A DNA stretch of 64,000 bases from NCBI GenBank assembly GCA_010093605.1, contig MU004188.1, forward strand, positions 692,341-756,340, written 5' to 3'. This stretch comes from Lophium mytilinum (taxonomy: Eukaryota; Ascomycota; Dothideomycetes; Mytilinidiales; Mytilinidiaceae). Positions 1,326-51,295 of the stretch are shown here, piece by piece. How positions within the stretch are numbered: position 1 is the stretch's first letter; each line of letters starts with the position of its first letter. The translations under genes and the position numbers were made by a program. The notes beneath the pieces were generated by a model. It had not been told where the DNA came from, ran no database searches, and saw only the letters and a program-made list of their open reading frames with translations.

Positions 1326-1994
1326 ATGAGCAAACCCTTCGCCGCACGGCTTCTCCAGCCTCTATCATCAGCAATCTGCTCCTCCTGCCGCACTACCCTC
1401 GCCCGTCAACCTCTCCTCTCCACCCGCCCTTTCAGTAGCACGCCCGCCGTCCTCGCGAAAGACTTCCAAGATCCAACCGCGGTCATCTCCAAACTCAATT
1501 CCCTCGCTAGCGTACTAGAACCCTTTCAAAAGCCGACCTCGGGCTTTGAAGGCATCATCGGCCCCCGACACGCCCAAGACGACGAGATCGACTCCCTCGC
1601 CGCCTCCCTCCACAAGGAGGTCCCTATGTACCATTTCCACGTCTACGCCACAAAACACAACACGCACATCACGCTGACGCGGCCGAACCGCGAGCCCCTC
1701 ATCTCGGTGAGCTGTGGAAATATCGGGTTCAAGAAGGCGGCGCGGGGGACGTACGATAGCGCGTATCAATTGGCGGCGTATATGATGAGTCGGATTCAGG
1801 ACAAGGGGCTGTTGACGGAGATCAGGGACATGGAGGTTATATTTCGGGGGTTTGGGCCGGGGAGAGAGGCTGTCTCGAAGGTGATTATGAGCAGCGAGGG
1901 GAGGAATGTGAGGACTAAGATTAAGAAATTGACGGATGCGACGAGGCTGAAGTTTGGCGGGTTGAGGAGTCCGAGGATGAGGAGGTTGGGTTAG
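1326..1994 (+). CDS. Mitochondrial small-subunit ribosomal protein uS11m
   Basis: Single-exon gene of 222 codons for the mitochondrial homologue of bacterial S11 (yeast Mrps18), which binds 16S-like rRNA in the platform of the small subunit. The first 45 residues form an Arg/Ser-rich presequence containing RPFSST. The S11 domain fills the C-terminal half: YHFHVYATKHNTHITLTRPN, then SCGNIGFKKAARGTYDSAYQ, then IFRGFGPGREAVSKVI, ending in the basic LRSPRMRRLG tail. The start is the ATG at 1326, directly before the presequence. The open frame extends 30 nt upstream only through a TTG codon. It shares a promoter region of about 260 bp with divergent TIM44, so two mitochondrial biogenesis genes sit head to head. 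Confidence 0.95.
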   Translation: MSKPFAARLLQPLSSAICSSCRTTLARQPLLSTRPFSSTPAVLAKDFQDPTAVISKLNSLASVLEPFQKPTSGFEGIIGPRHAQDDEIDSLAASLHKEVPMYHFHVYATKHNTHITLTRPNREPLISVSCGNIGFKKAARGTYDSAYQLAAYMMSRIQDKGLLTEIRDMEVIFRGFGPGREAVSKVIMSSEGRNVRTKIKKLTDATRLKFGGLRSPRMRRLG

Positions 1995-3703: not shown

Positions 3704-5258
3704 ATGCCTCCCAAGAAGGCCGTGAAGGAGGAGAAGATTCTGCTGGGCAGGCCGGGCAACAGCTTGAAGAGTGGCATCGTATGTAGGAAACCATATCCGC
3801 AGATGTTTCAAGTCCTTACCCTGACAGTGATTTCAGGTTGGCCTGGCGAACGTCGGAAAGTCCACGCTGTTCCAAGCCATCACGAAGTGTCATCTTGGTA
3901 ACCCTGCCGTAAGTCTTCACTGCCCACAGCATTTGCGCAACCAGCTGACCGGCGTGGCAGAACTTTCCCTATGCTACCATCGACCCTGAAGAAGCTCGTG
4001 TCATTGTGCCCGATGAGCGATTCGACTGGCTAGTCGACCACTACAAGCCCAAATCTGTCGTGCCCGCCAACTTGACCGTCTACGATATCGCCGGTCTAAC
4101 GCGAGGCGCTTCAACTGGAGCTGGTCTTGGCAACGCTTTCTTGTCGCACATTCGTGCCGTCGATGCCATCTTCCAGGTCGTGAGATGCTTCGACGATGCC
4201 GAGATCATCCACGTTGAGGGTGACGTAGACCCCATCCGCGACTTGGAGATCATCAGCGACGAACTCCGGATCAAGGACATCGAGTTCACGGAGAAGGCTC
4301 ATGAGGCAATTGTCAAGCAGACCCGGAGAGGTGGCCAGAGCCTGGAGATGAAGAAGCTTAAGGAGGAGCAAGCTACCATCGAGAGGATCTTGGAGATGCT
4401 CAAGGACGGCAAAGACGTCCGGAAAGGCAACTGGAGCCCGAAAGAGGTAAGCACTGAGATTTCCATCTGCACATCCCACCGAACCCCTTGCCATATGATG
4501 ACAAAGAGCGATTGCTCTATAATCCCAGCTCTCTAATGGCCTCACGTACGCGTAGAGGCTACTTGATTAGAAGTCCAAACACTGATTTGCAACCATTCAT
4601 ACAAACATAGTCTCGTATATCGGTAGTAGCACTCCGCTAATACATGATCTTTAGGTCGAGGTCATCAACCCTCTCTTCCTTCTTACAGCTAAGCCTGTTG
4701 TCTACCTCATCAACCTCAGCGAGAAGGACTACATTCGCCAGAAGAACAAGCACCTTCCCAAGATCGCGCAATGGATCAAGGAGAACGCGCCAGGCGACCC
4801 AATCATCCCCATCTCTGTCTGCTTCGAAGAGCGTCTGTCGCGATTCGAGACCCAGGCCGAGGTCGACGAAGAGTGCAAGACCATTGGCGCGAAATCTGGC
4901 CTTCCTAAGGTCATTGTGACCATGCGAAAGGTTCTCAATCTCGGCAGCTTCTTCACGACTGGTACGGATGAAGTGCGGCAATGGACATTACGCAACGGGA
5001 CCAAGGCTCCTCAAGCTGCTGGTGTCATTCACGGAGGTAAGATGTGCCATAAATTCAGACATTACTCTATATACTGACACAATCGTAGACTTCGAGAAGA
5101 CCTTCATTCAAGTGATTGTCTACAACTTCAACGTGTTGAAGGAGGAGGGCGACGAAGCTACGGTGAAGGCCAAGGGCAAGGTGCTGACCAAGGGCAAGGA
5201 CTACATTGTGGAGGACGGTGATATTCTGCTCATTAAAGCCGGAGCGGCAAAGGCCTAG
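3704..5258 (+). CDS. OLA1: Obg-like ATPase OLA1/YchF
   Basis: Five exons (3704-3778, 3837-3908, 3961-4446, 4655-5036, 5089-5258) close in frame to 394 codons, the usual length for eukaryotic OLA1 (yeast Ola1/YBR025C). The P-loop is GLANVGKST (about residues 27-35). [15 protein letters not shown] is the G3/switch region. A canonical NKxD is replaced by NLSE, the change linked to ATP rather than GTP preference in this family. A coiled coil lies around residues 150-200, and a TGS domain ends the protein. YchF/OLA1 proteins bind ribosomes and act in translation and stress control. The third intron is about 208 nt, long for this window. The open frame continues upstream of the ATG with a presequence-like stretch (see findings). 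Confidence 0.96.
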
Positions 5259-46504: not shown

Positions 46505-47257
46505 ATGCCGCCCCCAAAACCCCACCAACGCACCTCCAAAACCCCCGCCCCAAACCCCCCCACCGAAAGCCCCAACTCCACCCTCTTCTTCTACATGCCC
46601 GACGAAAAACCCTACGGCCTCTTCTGCCAATGGCACCCCTCCCCCTTCACCGTCTCCACCTCCGCGCTCGTCTGGCTGCTCACCGAAGGCCCCCAACCCC
46701 CCTCCTTTTCCGACACTACCACAATGATAAACGGCGAGCCGGCTGACCCCCTCGTCGCTGCCTCAAGGGAGCTACCCATTCTTGCCACTAGCAAAATAAA
46801 CTTCAACTGCGCCGAGCAGTTCATGATGTTCGCGAAAGCGTTGTACTTCAGCGACTTCCGCACCGCCGTACGGATCATGGATTCGAAATCGCCGAAAGAG
46901 CAGCAGGCGCTCGGCGCGGCCGTTGCAGGGTTCTCGTCGGAGCGGTGGGGGCATGTGAAGGCGGGGCATGAGCGGATGGTGAAGGAGCGGGTGGTGGAGC
47001 AGGGGAATTATTGCAAGTTTACGCAGAATCGCGCGTTTAGGGAGGTGTTGCTGGGGACGGGGGAGCGGGAGCTGGCGGAGGCGGGGAGTAAGGATCGCAC
47101 GTGGGGGATTGGGTATACGGCGAAGAACGCGGAGCGGTATAGGAGTTATTGGGGACAGAATTTGTTGGGGAAGTGCTTGATGAGGGCTAGGGGGTGGATT
47201 AGGGAGGATGTTGCGAAGAGGGAGGAGAGTAGAGGGGGAGGTGGTACCAAGAGATAG
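46505..47257 (+). CDS. NADAR (DUF1768, YbiA-like) domain protein
   Basis: Single exon, 250 codons, starting at an ATG after a CA-rich leader. After about 25 Pro-rich residues, the NADAR domain shows FFYMPDEKPYGLFCQWHPSP, INFNCAEQFMMFAKALYF, MDSKSPKEQQALG, RWGHVKAGHERMVKERVV, KFTQNRAFREVLLGTGEREL and RTWGIGYTAKNAERYRSYWG with GQNLLGKCLMRAR. Bacterial YbiA/RibX-type members hydrolyse the N-glycosidic bond of reactive riboflavin-pathway intermediates. NADAR proteins are also linked to ADP-ribose metabolism. The key Trp/Glu/Asn positions of the fold look present. The gene is flanked downstream by the structured repeat array. Third-position GC is high throughout. Confidence 0.92.
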   Translation: MPPPKPHQRTSKTPAPNPPTESPNSTLFFYMPDEKPYGLFCQWHPSPFTVSTSALVWLLTEGPQPPSFSDTTTMINGEPADPLVAASRELPILATSKINFNCAEQFMMFAKALYFSDFRTAVRIMDSKSPKEQQALGAAVAGFSSERWGHVKAGHERMVKERVVEQGNYCKFTQNRAFREVLLGTGERELAEAGSKDRTWGIGYTAKNAERYRSYWGQNLLGKCLMRARGWIREDVAKREESRGGGGTKR

Positions 47258-47379
47258 GATAGGGAAACGACATGCCTTTCGTTCTAGCTATAGCGATTCT
47301 GTTATATGATGCTAGACTTCGCTTGACGACTTGACGAGATTTTGGTTCTTACGTTAGTGAATGAACGCCCCAGCAATCA

Positions 47380-47586
47380 CATATAATGCCCATTATTTCC
47401 CCCGACTCTCGCCCTAAGGGGTGTCTGCCTGTTGAGCGTCTGACCAGCGAACTCATTCGGGCATTCGGTCATATAGTAAAAACCGCCTTGGCAAGGGGCG
47501 GTATTCGTAGGGCTTCGGCCTGAGCTTTTTGTTCCCCCTTACGGGTTCAGGGTTCGATACGCGTGCCCGCCAGGTATTTCTTTTTG
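47380..47586 (+). ncRNA. Array unit 1, candidate structured RNA
   Basis: TATA-like CATATAAT at 47380. The short hairpin GCCCTAAGGGG lies at about 47411-47421. The long hairpin has an ACCGCC/GGCGGT stem (47482-47502), different in sequence from the CCCC/GGGG stem of the other units but fully paired. The UUCG hairpin is at 47509-47522, T5 at 47526-47530, B-box-like GGTTCGATAC at 47551-47560, and the final T5 at 47581-47585. The A-box region is the least clear of the five. Most diverged unit and furthest from its neighbour. Confidence 0.45.
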
Positions 47587-47737
47587 TCGAATGCTTTCTT
47601 GGTCACCACGTGATGGCCGGGGGACTACAACTTTCACTTGAACGACGTGCATGGTTTCCAGGCTTGTGTGCTGCCATTGAACGGGAACAAGATGGAGAAT
47701 GTACGTACATACATACCTGACACTTCTCCGCCGTGTG

Positions 47738-47985
47738 AGTATATCAAGTCGAAATACACAAGTAGATATACGCCACTAATCACCGCCACCTTCGCCTTTC
47801 GGGGCCTGCTCACTTTCGAGTGATGCAGTGGGGTCGGGCCTATGTGGGCTGGGCTCCAACAACGACCGAAAGGTCGACAAAAAACCCCTTTGGGTGCACC
47901 AGGGGGTTTTTAGTAAGGCTTCGGCCTGAGTTTTTACTGTCGAGGATTCGATCCGCATGAGCGAGTAGATTGGATGTTCCTTTTT
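47738..47985 (+). ncRNA. Array unit 2, candidate structured RNA
   Basis: TATA-like AGTATATC at 47738 or GATATAC at about 47765. TTCGCCTTTCGGGGCCTGC follows at about 47790, then A-box-like TGATGCAGTGGG near 47821. The long hairpin has AAAACCCC paired with GGGGTTTT (47879-47911). The UUCG hairpin with AGGC/GCCT stem lies at 47915-47928, T5 at 47931-47935, B-box-like GATTCGATCC at 47945-47954, then CCGCATGAGCG and T5 at 47981-47985. Confidence 0.5.
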
Positions 47986-48037
47986 GCTAACGGGATTTAT
48001 TGCATCATATCTTTTTTCGGCCTGTGGAACTATCCAG

Positions 48038-48261
48038 GTATATATACACTTCAAGCCACCGCTACCTTCGCCTTTCGGGGCCTGCACACTTTCGAGTGGC
48101 GCAGTGGGTCGGGTGCAATTCCACTCAGCTCTGTCGACCGAGAGGTCGTAAAAAACTCCTTGCGTGCACCAAGGGGTTTTTAGTAAGGCTTCGGCCTGAG
48201 TTTTTGGCTATCTCATAGGAGGGTTCGACGCGCGTAAGCGGGTCCGCAGTTTCTTTTTTTT
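48038..48261 (+). ncRNA. Array unit 3, candidate structured RNA
   Basis: TATA-like GGTATATATACA at 48038. TTCGCCTTTCGGGGCCTGC follows at about 48067. TGGCGCAGTGGG (48097-48108) matches the A-box consensus TRGCNNAGYNGG at every position. The long hairpin AAAACTCCTTG/CAAGGGGTTTT with loop CGTGCAC lies at 48150-48181. The UUCG hairpin is at 48185-48198, T5 at 48201-48205, B-box-like GGTTCGACGC at 48222-48231, then CGC-GTAA-GCG and a T8 run at 48254-48261. Confidence 0.55.
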
Positions 48262-48316
48262 CGCCAACTGGATATCTCACATCTCATCTTTTTTAGCTGC
48301 ATGTAGAAGTATCCAG

Positions 48317-48502
48317 GTATATAGACACTCCAATTCGCTGCTGCCCTCGCCCTACGGGGCACCACTTGCGCAATGACGCAGTGACCCGAAGAACCCCTTG
48401 CGTGCAACAGGGGGTTTTCGTAGGGCTTCGGCCTGAGCTTTTTGCTCTTTCAAAGAAGGGATAGGGTTCGATCCGCATGAGCGGACTGGTATCTTCTTTT
48501 TG
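48317..48502 (+). ncRNA. Array unit 4, candidate structured RNA
   Basis: TATA-like GGTATATAGACAC at about 48317. GCCCTACGGGGC hairpin at about 48349-48360. A-box-like TGACGCAGTGAC at 48374-48385. The long hairpin AACCCCTTG/CAGGGGGTT with loop CGTGCAA lies at 48391-48418. The UUCG hairpin with a GGGC/GCCT stem (one G-U) is at 48422-48435, T5 at 48439-48443, an exact B-box GGTTCGATCC at 48465-48474, a perfect CCGC-ATGA-GCGG hairpin, and T5 at 48497-48501. Confidence 0.55.
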
Positions 48503-48550
48503 CGGATTCGGATATCTTACCCTTCATTTCCCTGCTTGTGCAACTATTCA

Positions 48551-48755
48551 AGTATATAGACGCTCCGATTCGCCGCCGCCTTCGCCGTTCGGGGCCTACA
48601 GCCGATTTTGGTGCAGTCATGCGAGAGAAATCCCGCCTTCAGAAAGCCCCTTGGGTGCAACAAGGGGTTTTCGTAGGGCTTCGGCCCGAAGTTTTTGCTC
48701 TTCTGAATACCGCGAGTTCGAGATGTAGACGAGTGAGAAAAGGTTCTTCTTTTTT
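48551..48755 (+). ncRNA. Array unit 5, candidate structured RNA
   Basis: TATA-like AGTATATAGAC at 48551. TTCGCCGTTCGGGGCCTAC follows at about 48580. Weak A-box TGGTGCAGTCAT near 48609. The long hairpin AAAGCCCCTTG/CAAGGGGTTTT with loop GGTGCAA lies at 48643-48671. The UUCG hairpin has a perfect GGGC/GCCC stem (48676-48687), T5 at 48692-48696. The B-box is decayed (AGTTCGAGAT at 48714). The final T-run is at about 48749-48755. Confidence 0.5.
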
Positions 48756-48875
48756 GCAGATAGATAGAATTTTAACTAAAAGAGTATAAGAGATAAAGAG
48801 TTTAAGAGAGAGTATGAGCCACCATGCTTACTCATACTGTGAAGTCTTTGATTTCAATATCGTACCACGCATCTC

Positions 48876-51295
48876 TCAATGAATGCCCTCCAAAAACGCA
48901 ACCAACCGCTTCTTAATCACCACCCCAACCAACGCCCCAGTCCCCTCCTCCACCACACACAGGTGCCGCAGACCCAGCTTCCCAAACATCTCCACCGCAT
49001 ACTCCACCGGCGCCGCCGCGCACAGCGTGATCGGCGTGCGATCCACGAACGGCGTGAGGTCCATCACCGTCTCCGCCTCATGCTCTTCCTCATGCGGACC
49101 ACCCAACAGCCTCACCTCCGCATCAGCCGCGTACACCGAGCCCAGCGCGTCCGGCTTACTGGAGAGCCCAAACGCGAGCTCGCCTTCCGCAATGTAGCCC
49201 TGCAGCATCTGCACGCTCGTTCCGGGAAGCGCCTGCACGAGCACGAGGCCCGCGTCCATAAGGCCCCTCGCGTGAAGCTGATCGAGCTTCTTTTGCAGCA
49301 GCACGCGAGGGACTTTGTTGCTCGGCGGCACTACGACCGTGATCTCGTCCATTGTCTGCTTCGGCGGTACGAGTTCCTGCACTAACCGACTCTCTTTTCG
49401 TACGAGTAGCGTTGCGTGATCGGCGTCGAGAAACGGGTGTCCTAGTACCGTCTGCGCGAGGTCGTATACTCCCTCCGATGAGATGGCGTCGGCGACCCAT
49501 TTCGCGACTAGGATTGCGATCATGTGTGGGACGATGTACTCGAGTTCGCCGGTGAGCTCGAACATGATTACGCAGAGGGAGATGGTCATGCGGGAGACGC
49601 CGGCGAGGAAGGCGGCTGCGCCTACCATCGCGAAGATGCCGGGGGAGATGGTGCCGATAGATTGGCCTAGCAGGCGGCCAAAGAGAGCGCCAGCGTCGAG
49701 GGCGGGGATGATCACGCCCGAGGGGACTTTGCAGCCGAAGGTGATGATCGTGAGGATGAGTTTGGTGAGGGTGCCGTAAGTGAGCCAGCCGACGTAGACC
49801 CAGCGCGCGGAAGTGCTTGAGGCAGCGTCGGCTTCGTGTGTGCAGACCCAGGAGCTGGCTGACTTGGGGGAACGACAGTCTACGAGGAGGTTCTTGATGA
49901 TTGTGTCGCCTGGTTCTCGCGTCAGGGGATTGGGGTACTGAAGTAGAGTGGTGGCGAGAACGACGAGGAAGACTTCGAAAACGGGGTGGTTCTTGATGAG
50001 GCCGTAGCTGCGGAACCATTTCGACCACTTGAAGTTTGCTTTGCAGAAGATGCCACCGAAGATGCCGCCCGCGATTCCTAGCACTACGAAGACGACGTAG
50101 TGGATTGGTGAGTATGAAGTGCCGTAATTAGTCTCGAAGAGAACGAGTTTTCCTGTGCCCGTGGGATTAAGTGCTTTCAAGACCATCGCTGCGAAGAGTG
50201 AGCAGAGAAAAGCGCGCCAGAGGACTTTGCGTGGGAAGTATGTGCTGATTTCTTCGTAGCTGAATAAGACGCCGCCGATAGGTGCACCAAAAGCGACGCT
50301 GAGGCCTGATGCACACGCAGCGGAGAGTAGCTCTCGCATTTTGCGGCCATTCTCTCGGTATTTGGGAAACCAATTGCCAACAATGTAGCCCACGCAGGTA
50401 GAGATATGCACGAAAGGACCTTCTTTGCCTAGACACATGCCTGTAGCAACGGCGAAGATGGCACCGAAGCCTTTGACAACGAGAACCTTCAGGTCCAGGA
50501 AGTTGGGGATCACAAAGCCGGAGAGAATGGTCTTGATCTCTGGGATACCGGAGCCAGCGGCCATGTACATCGATTTCCCAGCCGGCTGCGATTTGGACTT
50601 TGTGTCGTGAGGCTTGCCTGCCTTCCCTGGTGCTACAGCTGGCAACGAGCTTTTCGTGAGCATAGTTGCGCTGGAGCTGATAAGGCCGAAAAGCAACGCC
50701 CATGCTACGTAGATGGCAAATGAGGCCCAGTAATTCTCCGACCATAGTTGGAAATGCTTGCATTGGTCTCCAATCTCGGATTGAATTCCAAGGAGAGGGG
50801 TCTTATCCTCGCAGCATGCTTCGCGATTTAGCAGTGGATTCCTGGTGCAGTAGCCCAACTTCCAGTCCGAGACAGTTGCTTCGGCCACATCCACGACAAA
50901 CGCTACACAAGCCGTAAGCGTTCCTATAATCATCACGGCAATCCATCCAGAAGAGGCTTCGAAGAGAGAAACGAGCTCGTAGCGGAGGCCTTTCCGAGAT
51001 TTGATATAGCGGAACCGGTACGAATCTTTTACCTATGAACTATCAATGCCTGCGAGTTTGGACAGCGGGAAGAGATTACCAAATCATGTAACCAGTCAAT
51101 GGTCGTATAGTCGTTGTACGGCAATCTTTCCCCAACCGTACTGCCGGCCATTTGCTGCTCTTCCTTCGTAACAGCAGACGAGATGATAGACTGAGCCTCG
51201 TCCTCATGCTGCAGATGGCTCAATCTGCGATTGTTCGCAGCATGGGAGAGGAGATGCGTCCGCTCTGTTGCGGATTCGACGTCCGTAGAAGGCAT
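48876..51295 (-). CDS. CLC-family voltage-gated chloride channel / Cl-/H+ antiporter
   Basis: Two exons (51295-51080 and 51032-48876, 47-nt intron) join in frame to 790 codons. The cytosolic N-terminus (MPSTDVESATERTHLLSHAA) carries an acidic and LL-type sorting-like region. The CLC core shows GSGIPEIKTILSGF, GMCLGKEGPFVHIS (with the gating Glu), FGAPIGGVLFSYEE, KVPSGVIIPALDAGALFGR and VSRMTISLCVIMFELTGELE. Two C-terminal CBS domains follow (ending LRHLCVVEEGTGALVGVVIK). The extracellular loop with CCEDKTPLLG and the overall plan fit the intracellular ClC-3/Gef1-like branch, which acidifies Golgi/endosomal lumens. The branch assignment is inference. Minus-strand 3' end abuts the RNA array. 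Confidence 0.95.

Follow-up and report, generated by a model that had tools for sequence, protein, structure and literature searches.

A tandem array of five putative U6-type RNA polymerase III genes in Lophium mytilinum and its relatives elsewhere in the genome

The DNA analyzed here is a 64,000-nt window (positions 692,341 to 756,340) of contig MU004188.1 of the ascomycete Lophium mytilinum, called C8 below, in an assembly of 43.18 Mb in 24 contigs. A tandem array of five units lies in this window between two convergent genes, one encoding a NADAR-domain protein on the plus strand and one encoding a CLC protein on the minus strand. A first-pass annotation made from the sequence had described these units as a possible family of structured RNAs transcribed by RNA polymerase III (Pol III). 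All five were found where they had been placed: the repeat families of the window include a 77-nt 5' segment present four times and a 56-nt 3' segment present five times, and pairwise BLAST aligned the units with one another (E 1e-39 for units 2 and 3, 7e-23 for units 4 and 5). The four spacers gave no BLAST match, three of them being just 31-38 nt long, and the array contained no open frame reaching 150 aa, the minimum length considered. As set out below, the units probably belong to an uncharacterized gene family, with 19 or more members, in which small structured non-coding RNAs are encoded by U6-type Pol III genes.

Most units follow one plan. A TATA-like box lies about 33-35 nt ahead of the loop, often UUCG, of a 5' hairpin (hairpin I); next come an A-box arm, hairpins that vary between members, hairpin III with its 7-nt loop, a GUAGGGC-UUCG-GCCCGA hairpin (hairpin IV), a T5-8 run, a B-box-like site and usually a second T-run. 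The order originally described, from TATA and A-box through the long hairpin, UUCG hairpin, T5 and B-box to the final T-run, was readable in all five array units; it is weakest for the A-box of unit 1, where the expected position lacks a good match, and for the B-box of unit 5. Overlooked at that stage were the 5' hairpin with its UUCG-like loop and the family members elsewhere in the genome.

A covariance model, as the first-pass annotation had proposed, was built from six copies (model R1), the sixth being a copy on contig C3 that was retrieved through its DNA similarity to part of unit 2. The genome was scanned by DNA searches and with short patterns, and the loci retrieved in this way were scored with the model; all family sequences are from this one genome. 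The pattern GTARGGCTTCGGCCYGA occurred with up to two mismatches at 38 places, nine of them exact, compared to 28 for the reversed control. The 23-base 3' hairpin motif GTAGGRCTTCGGYCYGAGTTTTT occurred with up to three mismatches at 16 places in the assembly, all of which fall in family loci, and at none when reversed. Similarly, a 3' hairpin pattern gave 17 matches and its reverse none, and a hairpin III pattern gave four against none, one of which was a new copy on C16. R1 accepted 18 members. Scores with the later model R2 ranged from 46.5 to 137.5 bits for all 19 members, of which 18 were R2 training rows; the C16 member (L076), outside the training alignment, scored 63.1 bits, and 25 other loci of the same genome scored 13.2 bits at most.

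The family comprises at least 19 units in nine clusters or single loci, the array in the window (C8:740k, five members) being the largest. Four members lie at C8:460k, three at C18:1187k, two at C3:1671k and one each at C3:1137k, C3:1551k, C2:401k, C2:617k and C16:744k. Mean pairwise identity among members is 56% (range 42-84%). One member of the C8:460k cluster (L049 3575-3713, minus strand) has no TATA box and only a T4 run, with better members on either side; it looks like a dead gene and is a sign of birth-and-death evolution. No neighbor gene shared by the other eight loci was noticed by eye in the open-frame lists, and the viral contigs contained no exact match to the 23-base pattern. 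A match at C7:528977 was taken as a chance occurrence, having no model support apart from the motif itself. A weak match to the 3' hairpin pattern (three mismatches) lies at C5:944430-944461 on the plus strand.

Promoter elements recur at defined positions across the family. A TATA-like box (up to one mismatch to TATAWA) lies 29-36 nt upstream of the 5' hairpin loop in 18 of the 19 members, eight of them exact, and the spacing to the hairpin is precisely 32 nt in nine of 18 members; the scan covered 21-48 nt, for which we estimated by hand one chance match in about one-fifth of the members. The first T-run ranges from T4 to T8 in the 18 members tabulated. The best B-box of the next 75 nt begins 7-21 nt past this run in every one of them and has at most two mismatches in 13, a level reached by 1.4% of random 35-nt stretches. 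A run of T4 or longer past the B-box is present in 15 of the 18. The A-box is less distinct: it has no more than one mismatch in 15 of 18, a level also reached by 16% of random 30-nt stretches, and the scan of the members covered more than 30 nt; in unit 1 and member C18a the best A-box match lies outside the A-box arm. Within the array, the full A-box reported for unit 3 is a perfect match. The short B-box consensus is GWTCRANNC, and the full B-box reported for unit 4 is perfect only against this consensus, with two mismatches to GGTTCGANTCC. By eye, the middle of the C16 member (L076 ~1550-1600, minus strand) contains a tRNA-like pair of an A-box, GTGGTTCAGTGGTATGG, and a B-box, GTTCGAGCCCGGG, so that this copy may carry an internal B-box in addition to the external one.

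These positions bear on the other possibility raised in the first-pass annotation, a tRNA-derived element resembling a short interspersed nuclear element (SINE), i.e. a short retroposon with internal A and B boxes that was copied via RNA and is partly tandem. The spread of copies over contigs C2, C3, C8, C16 and C18 would suit such an element. However, five single dispersed copies retain the upstream TATA-like box (weak in C2_401), and the B-box-like site past the first T-run is also kept, with two mismatches or fewer in C3_1137, C2_401 and C2_617, four in C3_1551, and by eye in the C16 copy. As a retroposed transcript would lose both of these external elements, a SINE origin is therefore very improbable. 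Moreover, only about 19 copies were found, at the low mean identity given above, and ARAGORN found no tRNA in the array or in the other family loci, in agreement with the earlier statement that no cloverleaf can be drawn. What stood of the original interpretation was a family of Pol III-type structured RNAs with a layout like that of the yeast U6 gene.

The host U6 genes provided a yardstick for this layout. The Rfam U6 model RF00026 gave 21 matches above cut-off in this genome, far beyond one U6 gene. In all eight of the U6 loci examined among these 21 matches, a TATA box is situated 38-40 nt before CATTTGG, and a T7-10 run is followed 22-27 nt later by a B-box with one to three mismatches and then by a T4-8 run. 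The plan described for yeast SNR6 is the same, with a TATA box, a T-run terminator, a B-box beyond it and a second T-run (PMC11346459, excerpt). Since the order of TATA, T-run, B-box and T-run is common to the family and the host U6 genes, we conclude that the promoter plan is shared; by analogy, the family may use the same factors. The UUCG 5' stem-loop also lies at nearly the same distance from the TATA box as in U6. In contrast, the family loci contain no U6 body and none of the 21 listed RF00026 matches, which confirms the earlier observation of a U6 layout without U6 sequence and led us to reject U6 small nuclear RNA as their identity. The family further differs in its two conserved 3' hairpins, which are not seen in U6, and in a B-box that is closer to the first T-run. 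Seven of the RF00026 matches span 148-151 nt compared to the usual ~100 nt, as if an intron of ~48 nt were inserted. Signal recognition particle RNA is single in this genome (C8:1274773-1275042, minus strand), compared to the multi-copy U6 and the new family.

The sequence itself shows how the genes are laid out and, with the greatest certainty, the two 3' hairpins. Units 2, 3 and 5 have a UUCG loop in the 5' hairpin, unit 4 has UACG and unit 1 has UAAG. The stem variants quoted for the array were correct, among them the replacement of C-G by G-C in unit 1; the loop GUGCA, which had been called constant, is present in units 2 to 5 and absent from unit 1. Fifteen of the 19 members have a 7-nt hairpin III loop in the alignment, and 14 of these loops have the form N-N-Y-G-Y-A-N. 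Hairpin IV keeps a U-A pair in all 19 while its stem varies among GGGC/GCCC, AGGC/GCCU and GGAC/GUCC. The RNA from the 5' hairpin to the T-run would be 103-161 nt long, shorter than the 150-200 nt first suggested. The core of the hairpin III loop is self-complementary in a few members (GUGCAC in units 2 and 3 and in C8_460c of L049, GCGCGC in C3_1137 of L005) and could form loop-loop dimers through the hexamer; kissing dimers were dropped as a general feature, most other members having no such core. Hairpin III also has a likeness to an anticodon loop, which is a lead only.

Hairpin III has ~12 bp and hairpin IV has 4 bp, and stems of such lengths are too short for the usual Dicer products. 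It is thus very doubtful that the transcripts are precursors of microRNA-like RNAs (milRNAs) comparable to Pol III-made Neurospora milR-1. In Neurospora crassa, Pol III makes milRNA precursors with T-runs, a feature that the family has in common with milR-1 to milR-4, and a figure legend marks putative A- and B-boxes among these four; milR-1 itself is described as a milRNA precursor without a predicted A or B box, unlike the family, which carries A-box-like and B-box-like elements (PMC3547838, excerpt).

Covariation was examined in a 19-row model-fitted alignment (A6) and, because A6 leans towards structure, in an alignment of hairpins III and IV made by sequence alone (A7). In A6, 88.8% of 509 cells were standard pairs and 19 of 29 pairs showed two-sided changes. 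None of 500 shuffles reached any of the five measures, and sliding one side lowered pairing to 37-62%. In A7, 89.6% of cells were paired, as high as in only one of 500 shuffles, and sliding by one reduced this value to 78%. Two-sided cells numbered 18 in A7 compared to a shuffled mean of 6.9, and the covariation score was 0.294 compared to 0.207, neither of which was reached in 500 shuffles. RNAalifold recovered hairpins I, III and IV from another fitted alignment (A4), and hairpin III was kept in the single folds of all six first copies.

We then considered folding energy in 17 members, leaving out C8_460p and C16. The segment from the 5' hairpin to the T-run had a mean folding z of -2.25, with p<0.05 in 10 of the 17, compared to an average of +0.14 for 60 145-mers taken at random from the window; for the middle portion of the RNA on its own the mean was -2.17. 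The covariation among 18-19 members, the folding energy and the layout common to eight host U6 loci together support a Pol III-type RNA family. The compensated substitutions in hairpins III and IV and the better-than-random folding also point to selection on RNA, which argues against the units being boundary or insulator elements that bind TFIIIC as DNA and give rise to RNA, if at all, only incidentally. Arrays of A- and B-boxes between convergent genes do resemble extra-TFIIIC sites, but the TATA-to-hairpin spacing is held as well, and we regard such elements as a very unlikely explanation.

Several results weigh against the reading as U6-type genes for structured RNAs. All sequences being from one genome, the covariation is among paralogues, and the shuffle control ignores their relatedness. 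The larger pair counts and the RNAalifold recovery of hairpins I, III and IV depend on structure-fitted alignments; with A7, the count of two-sided pairs and pair types was matched by 45 of 500 shuffles, and RNAalifold found hairpin IV but placed hairpin III one step out of register. For the first six sequences alone, pair counts were not above those of shuffles (78/500). The A-box arm (HII), which in R2 replaced an early helix P1 between the 5' flank and the A-box strand, is paired in only 71.3% of the R2-fitted alignment (19 rows); in the R1-fitted alignment P1 was clearly the better paired (82.8% compared to 58.4%). Seven of the 17 members fold no better than shuffles at p 0.05, with unit 1, C3_1671a, C18a and C2_617 near zero, and the minimum-energy single folds of units 3, 4 and 5 replace hairpins I and IV by long-range pairing. 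The B-boxes of unit 5 and C3_1551 carry four mismatches, and we only infer the docking and member-specific steps proposed below. Finally, the first T-run is just T5 in nine of 18 members, and transcription of some RNAs may continue as far as the second T-run.

A T5 run is a weak stop in yeast. Together with the frequent second T-run, the short first runs would suit transcripts that extend to the second run and include the B-box, in which case the units would be type 2 Pol III genes of the usual tRNA-like kind, with a weak T5 inside. Against this stand the T8 at the first run of C3_1137 and the position of the two strongest conserved hairpins, which end right at the first T-run. In addition, each of the eight U6 loci examined has a T-run past its external B-box, the RNA end being taken at the first run. 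We therefore consider type 2 genes unlikely, although they are the strongest of the alternatives weighed here.

The long-range pairing in units 3 to 5 brings together the 5' and 3' UUCG hairpins. Such mutual pairing was tried as a general feature and rejected, as the comparison of own and cross pairing in 17 members (p 0.045) was too weak to claim. 7SK and Y RNAs have 5' and 3' hairpins and an oligo-U end, and the family RNAs, as putative Pol III products, are alike in this general outline. A 7SK-like or Y-RNA-like regulator, in which these parts hold an inhibitory or quality-control protein, would also be consistent with the single-sequence folds of units 3 to 5. On the other hand, the 5' and 3' ends are not brought together by any helix of the modeled structure, no Rfam match was obtained, and the TROVE domain (Ro60, PF05731) has no match in the assembly, which excludes a Y RNA in the strict sense. 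Overall, this type of regulator is quite unlikely.

At the gathering cut-off, Rfam 15 contained no family for the array or for the eight other family loci, and a search of the array at E up to 5 returned a chance-level DLEU2_6 match only. No account of such a family was recognized among open-licence papers, taken mostly from listings. As far as Rfam 15 and this literature show, the family is uncatalogued. It shares the outline of a clustered small-RNA family with the class I RNAs of dictyostelid amoebae, a lineage-specific family with many intergenic genes that are often clustered and have conserved elements and a variable middle (PMC7919456, excerpt). Those of Dictyostelium discoideum are 42-65 nt long, with a stem closing the 5' and 3' ends, an 11-nt motif and a DUSE promoter element (PMC7919456, excerpt), unlike the longer family RNA, whose ends are modeled as separate hairpins. 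Structured fungal RNA candidates were likewise obtained by comparative genomics by Li and Breaker in 2017; the excerpt of that work presents no clustered family with U6 promoters among its 15 named motifs, and the words UUCG and tandem are absent from its main text (PMC5640933, excerpt). The coordinates of the array and its flanking genes are listed in the table. Elsewhere in the window, positions 4491-4588 on the plus strand match the Aspergillus fumigatus C/D small nucleolar RNA Afu_304 in Rfam (39.1 bits, above cut-off).

Table. Positions in the window of the array units, their elements and the two flanking genes.
Feature	Position	Strand	Remark
NADAR-domain protein gene (upstream flank)	46505..47257	+	Pfam PF08719, E 1.4e-45; context only
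Unit 1	47380..47585	+	R2 72.0 bits; most diverged of the five
Unit 1 TATA-like box	47380-47387	+	
Unit 1 5' hairpin	47411-47422	+	loop UAAG
Unit 1 hairpin III	47481-47502	+	ACCGCC/GGCGGT
Unit 1 hairpin IV	47507-47523	+	
Unit 1 first T-run	47526-47530	+	T5
Unit 1 B-box	47551-47560	+	
Unit 1 second T-run	47577-47585	+	
Unit 2	47763..47985	+	R2 113.8 bits
Unit 2 TATA-like box	47763-47771	+	
Unit 2 5' hairpin	47794-47805	+	UUCG
Unit 2 A-box arm	47806-47831	+	
Unit 2 hairpin III	47880-47911	+	
Unit 2 hairpin IV	47913-47929	+	
Unit 2 first T-run	47931-47935	+	T5
Unit 2 B-box-like site	47945-47954	+	3 mismatches
Unit 2 second T-run	47977-47985	+	
Unit 3	48039..48261	+	R2 137.5 bits
Unit 3 TATA box	48039-48047	+	
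Unit 3 5' hairpin	48070-48081	+	UUCG
Unit 3 A-box arm	48082-48107	+	perfect A-box 48097-48107
Unit 3 hairpin III	48151-48181	+	
Unit 3 hairpin IV	48183-48199	+	
Unit 3 first T-run	48201-48205	+	T5
Unit 3 B-box	48222-48231	+	
Unit 3 second T-run	48250-48261	+	
Unit 4	48318..48501	+	R2 88.2 bits; shortest
Unit 4 TATA box	48318-48326	+	
Unit 4 5' hairpin	48349-48360	+	UACG loop
Unit 4 A-box arm	48363-48383	+	
Unit 4 hairpin III	48390-48418	+	
Unit 4 hairpin IV	48420-48436	+	
Unit 4 first T-run	48439-48443	+	T5
Unit 4 B-box	48465-48474	+	
Unit 4 second T-run	48494-48501	+	
Unit 5	48553..48755	+	R2 107.6 bits
Unit 5 TATA box	48553-48561	+	
Unit 5 5' hairpin	48584-48595	+	UUCG
Unit 5 A-box-like site	48609-48619	+	
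Unit 5 hairpin III	48643-48671	+	
Unit 5 hairpin IV	48673-48689	+	
Unit 5 first T-run	48692-48696	+	T5
Unit 5 B-box	48715-48724	+	weak, 4 mismatches
Unit 5 second T-run	48744-48755	+	
CLC chloride channel protein gene (downstream flank)	48876..50936	-	Pfam PF00654; product 100% identical to an L. mytilinum protein; context only

If the units are U6-type Pol III genes, TFIIIB would bind the TATA box, and TFIIIC would bridge the A-box, which lies within the RNA-coding part, and the B-box past the terminator. Pol III would start ~20-25 nt past the TATA box and stop at the T-run directly after the 3' UUCG hairpin, leaving the B-box outside the RNA and the second T-run as a fail-safe stop. The two conserved 3' hairpins and the oligo-U tail would constitute the docking part of a stable ribonucleoprotein (RNP), with La or another U-tail binder at the RNA end and a further protein or RNA partner at the 7-nt loop, and the variable middle hairpins would give each member its own contact. 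Growth of the family would have occurred through duplication of DNA segments holding the whole gene. We tentatively suggest, as a possibility that falls somewhat short of being probable, that these RNAs represent a new class of fungal small RNP, i.e. a set of paralogous U6-promoter RNAs that grew by gene duplication in a single lineage and in which a conserved 3' docking module (the 7-nt Y-G-Y-A loop hairpin, the UA/GA-flanked UUCG hairpin and the U-tail) is combined with a diversified middle through which every RNA reaches a target or partner of its own.

The known set of ascomycete Pol III genes is short, consisting of those for tRNA, 5S, U6, RNase P and SRP RNAs and a few others. This set would become wider with a family of 19 units that follow the U6 promoter plan, show covariation in their structure and are without a relative in Rfam 15. 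Such a family would also provide about 20 natural variants for testing how TFIIIC acts with a B-box outside the gene, and the same variants would be suited to asking whether a hairpin helps Pol III to stop at T5 and to identifying the partners of the conserved 7-nt loop and of the 3' hairpin.
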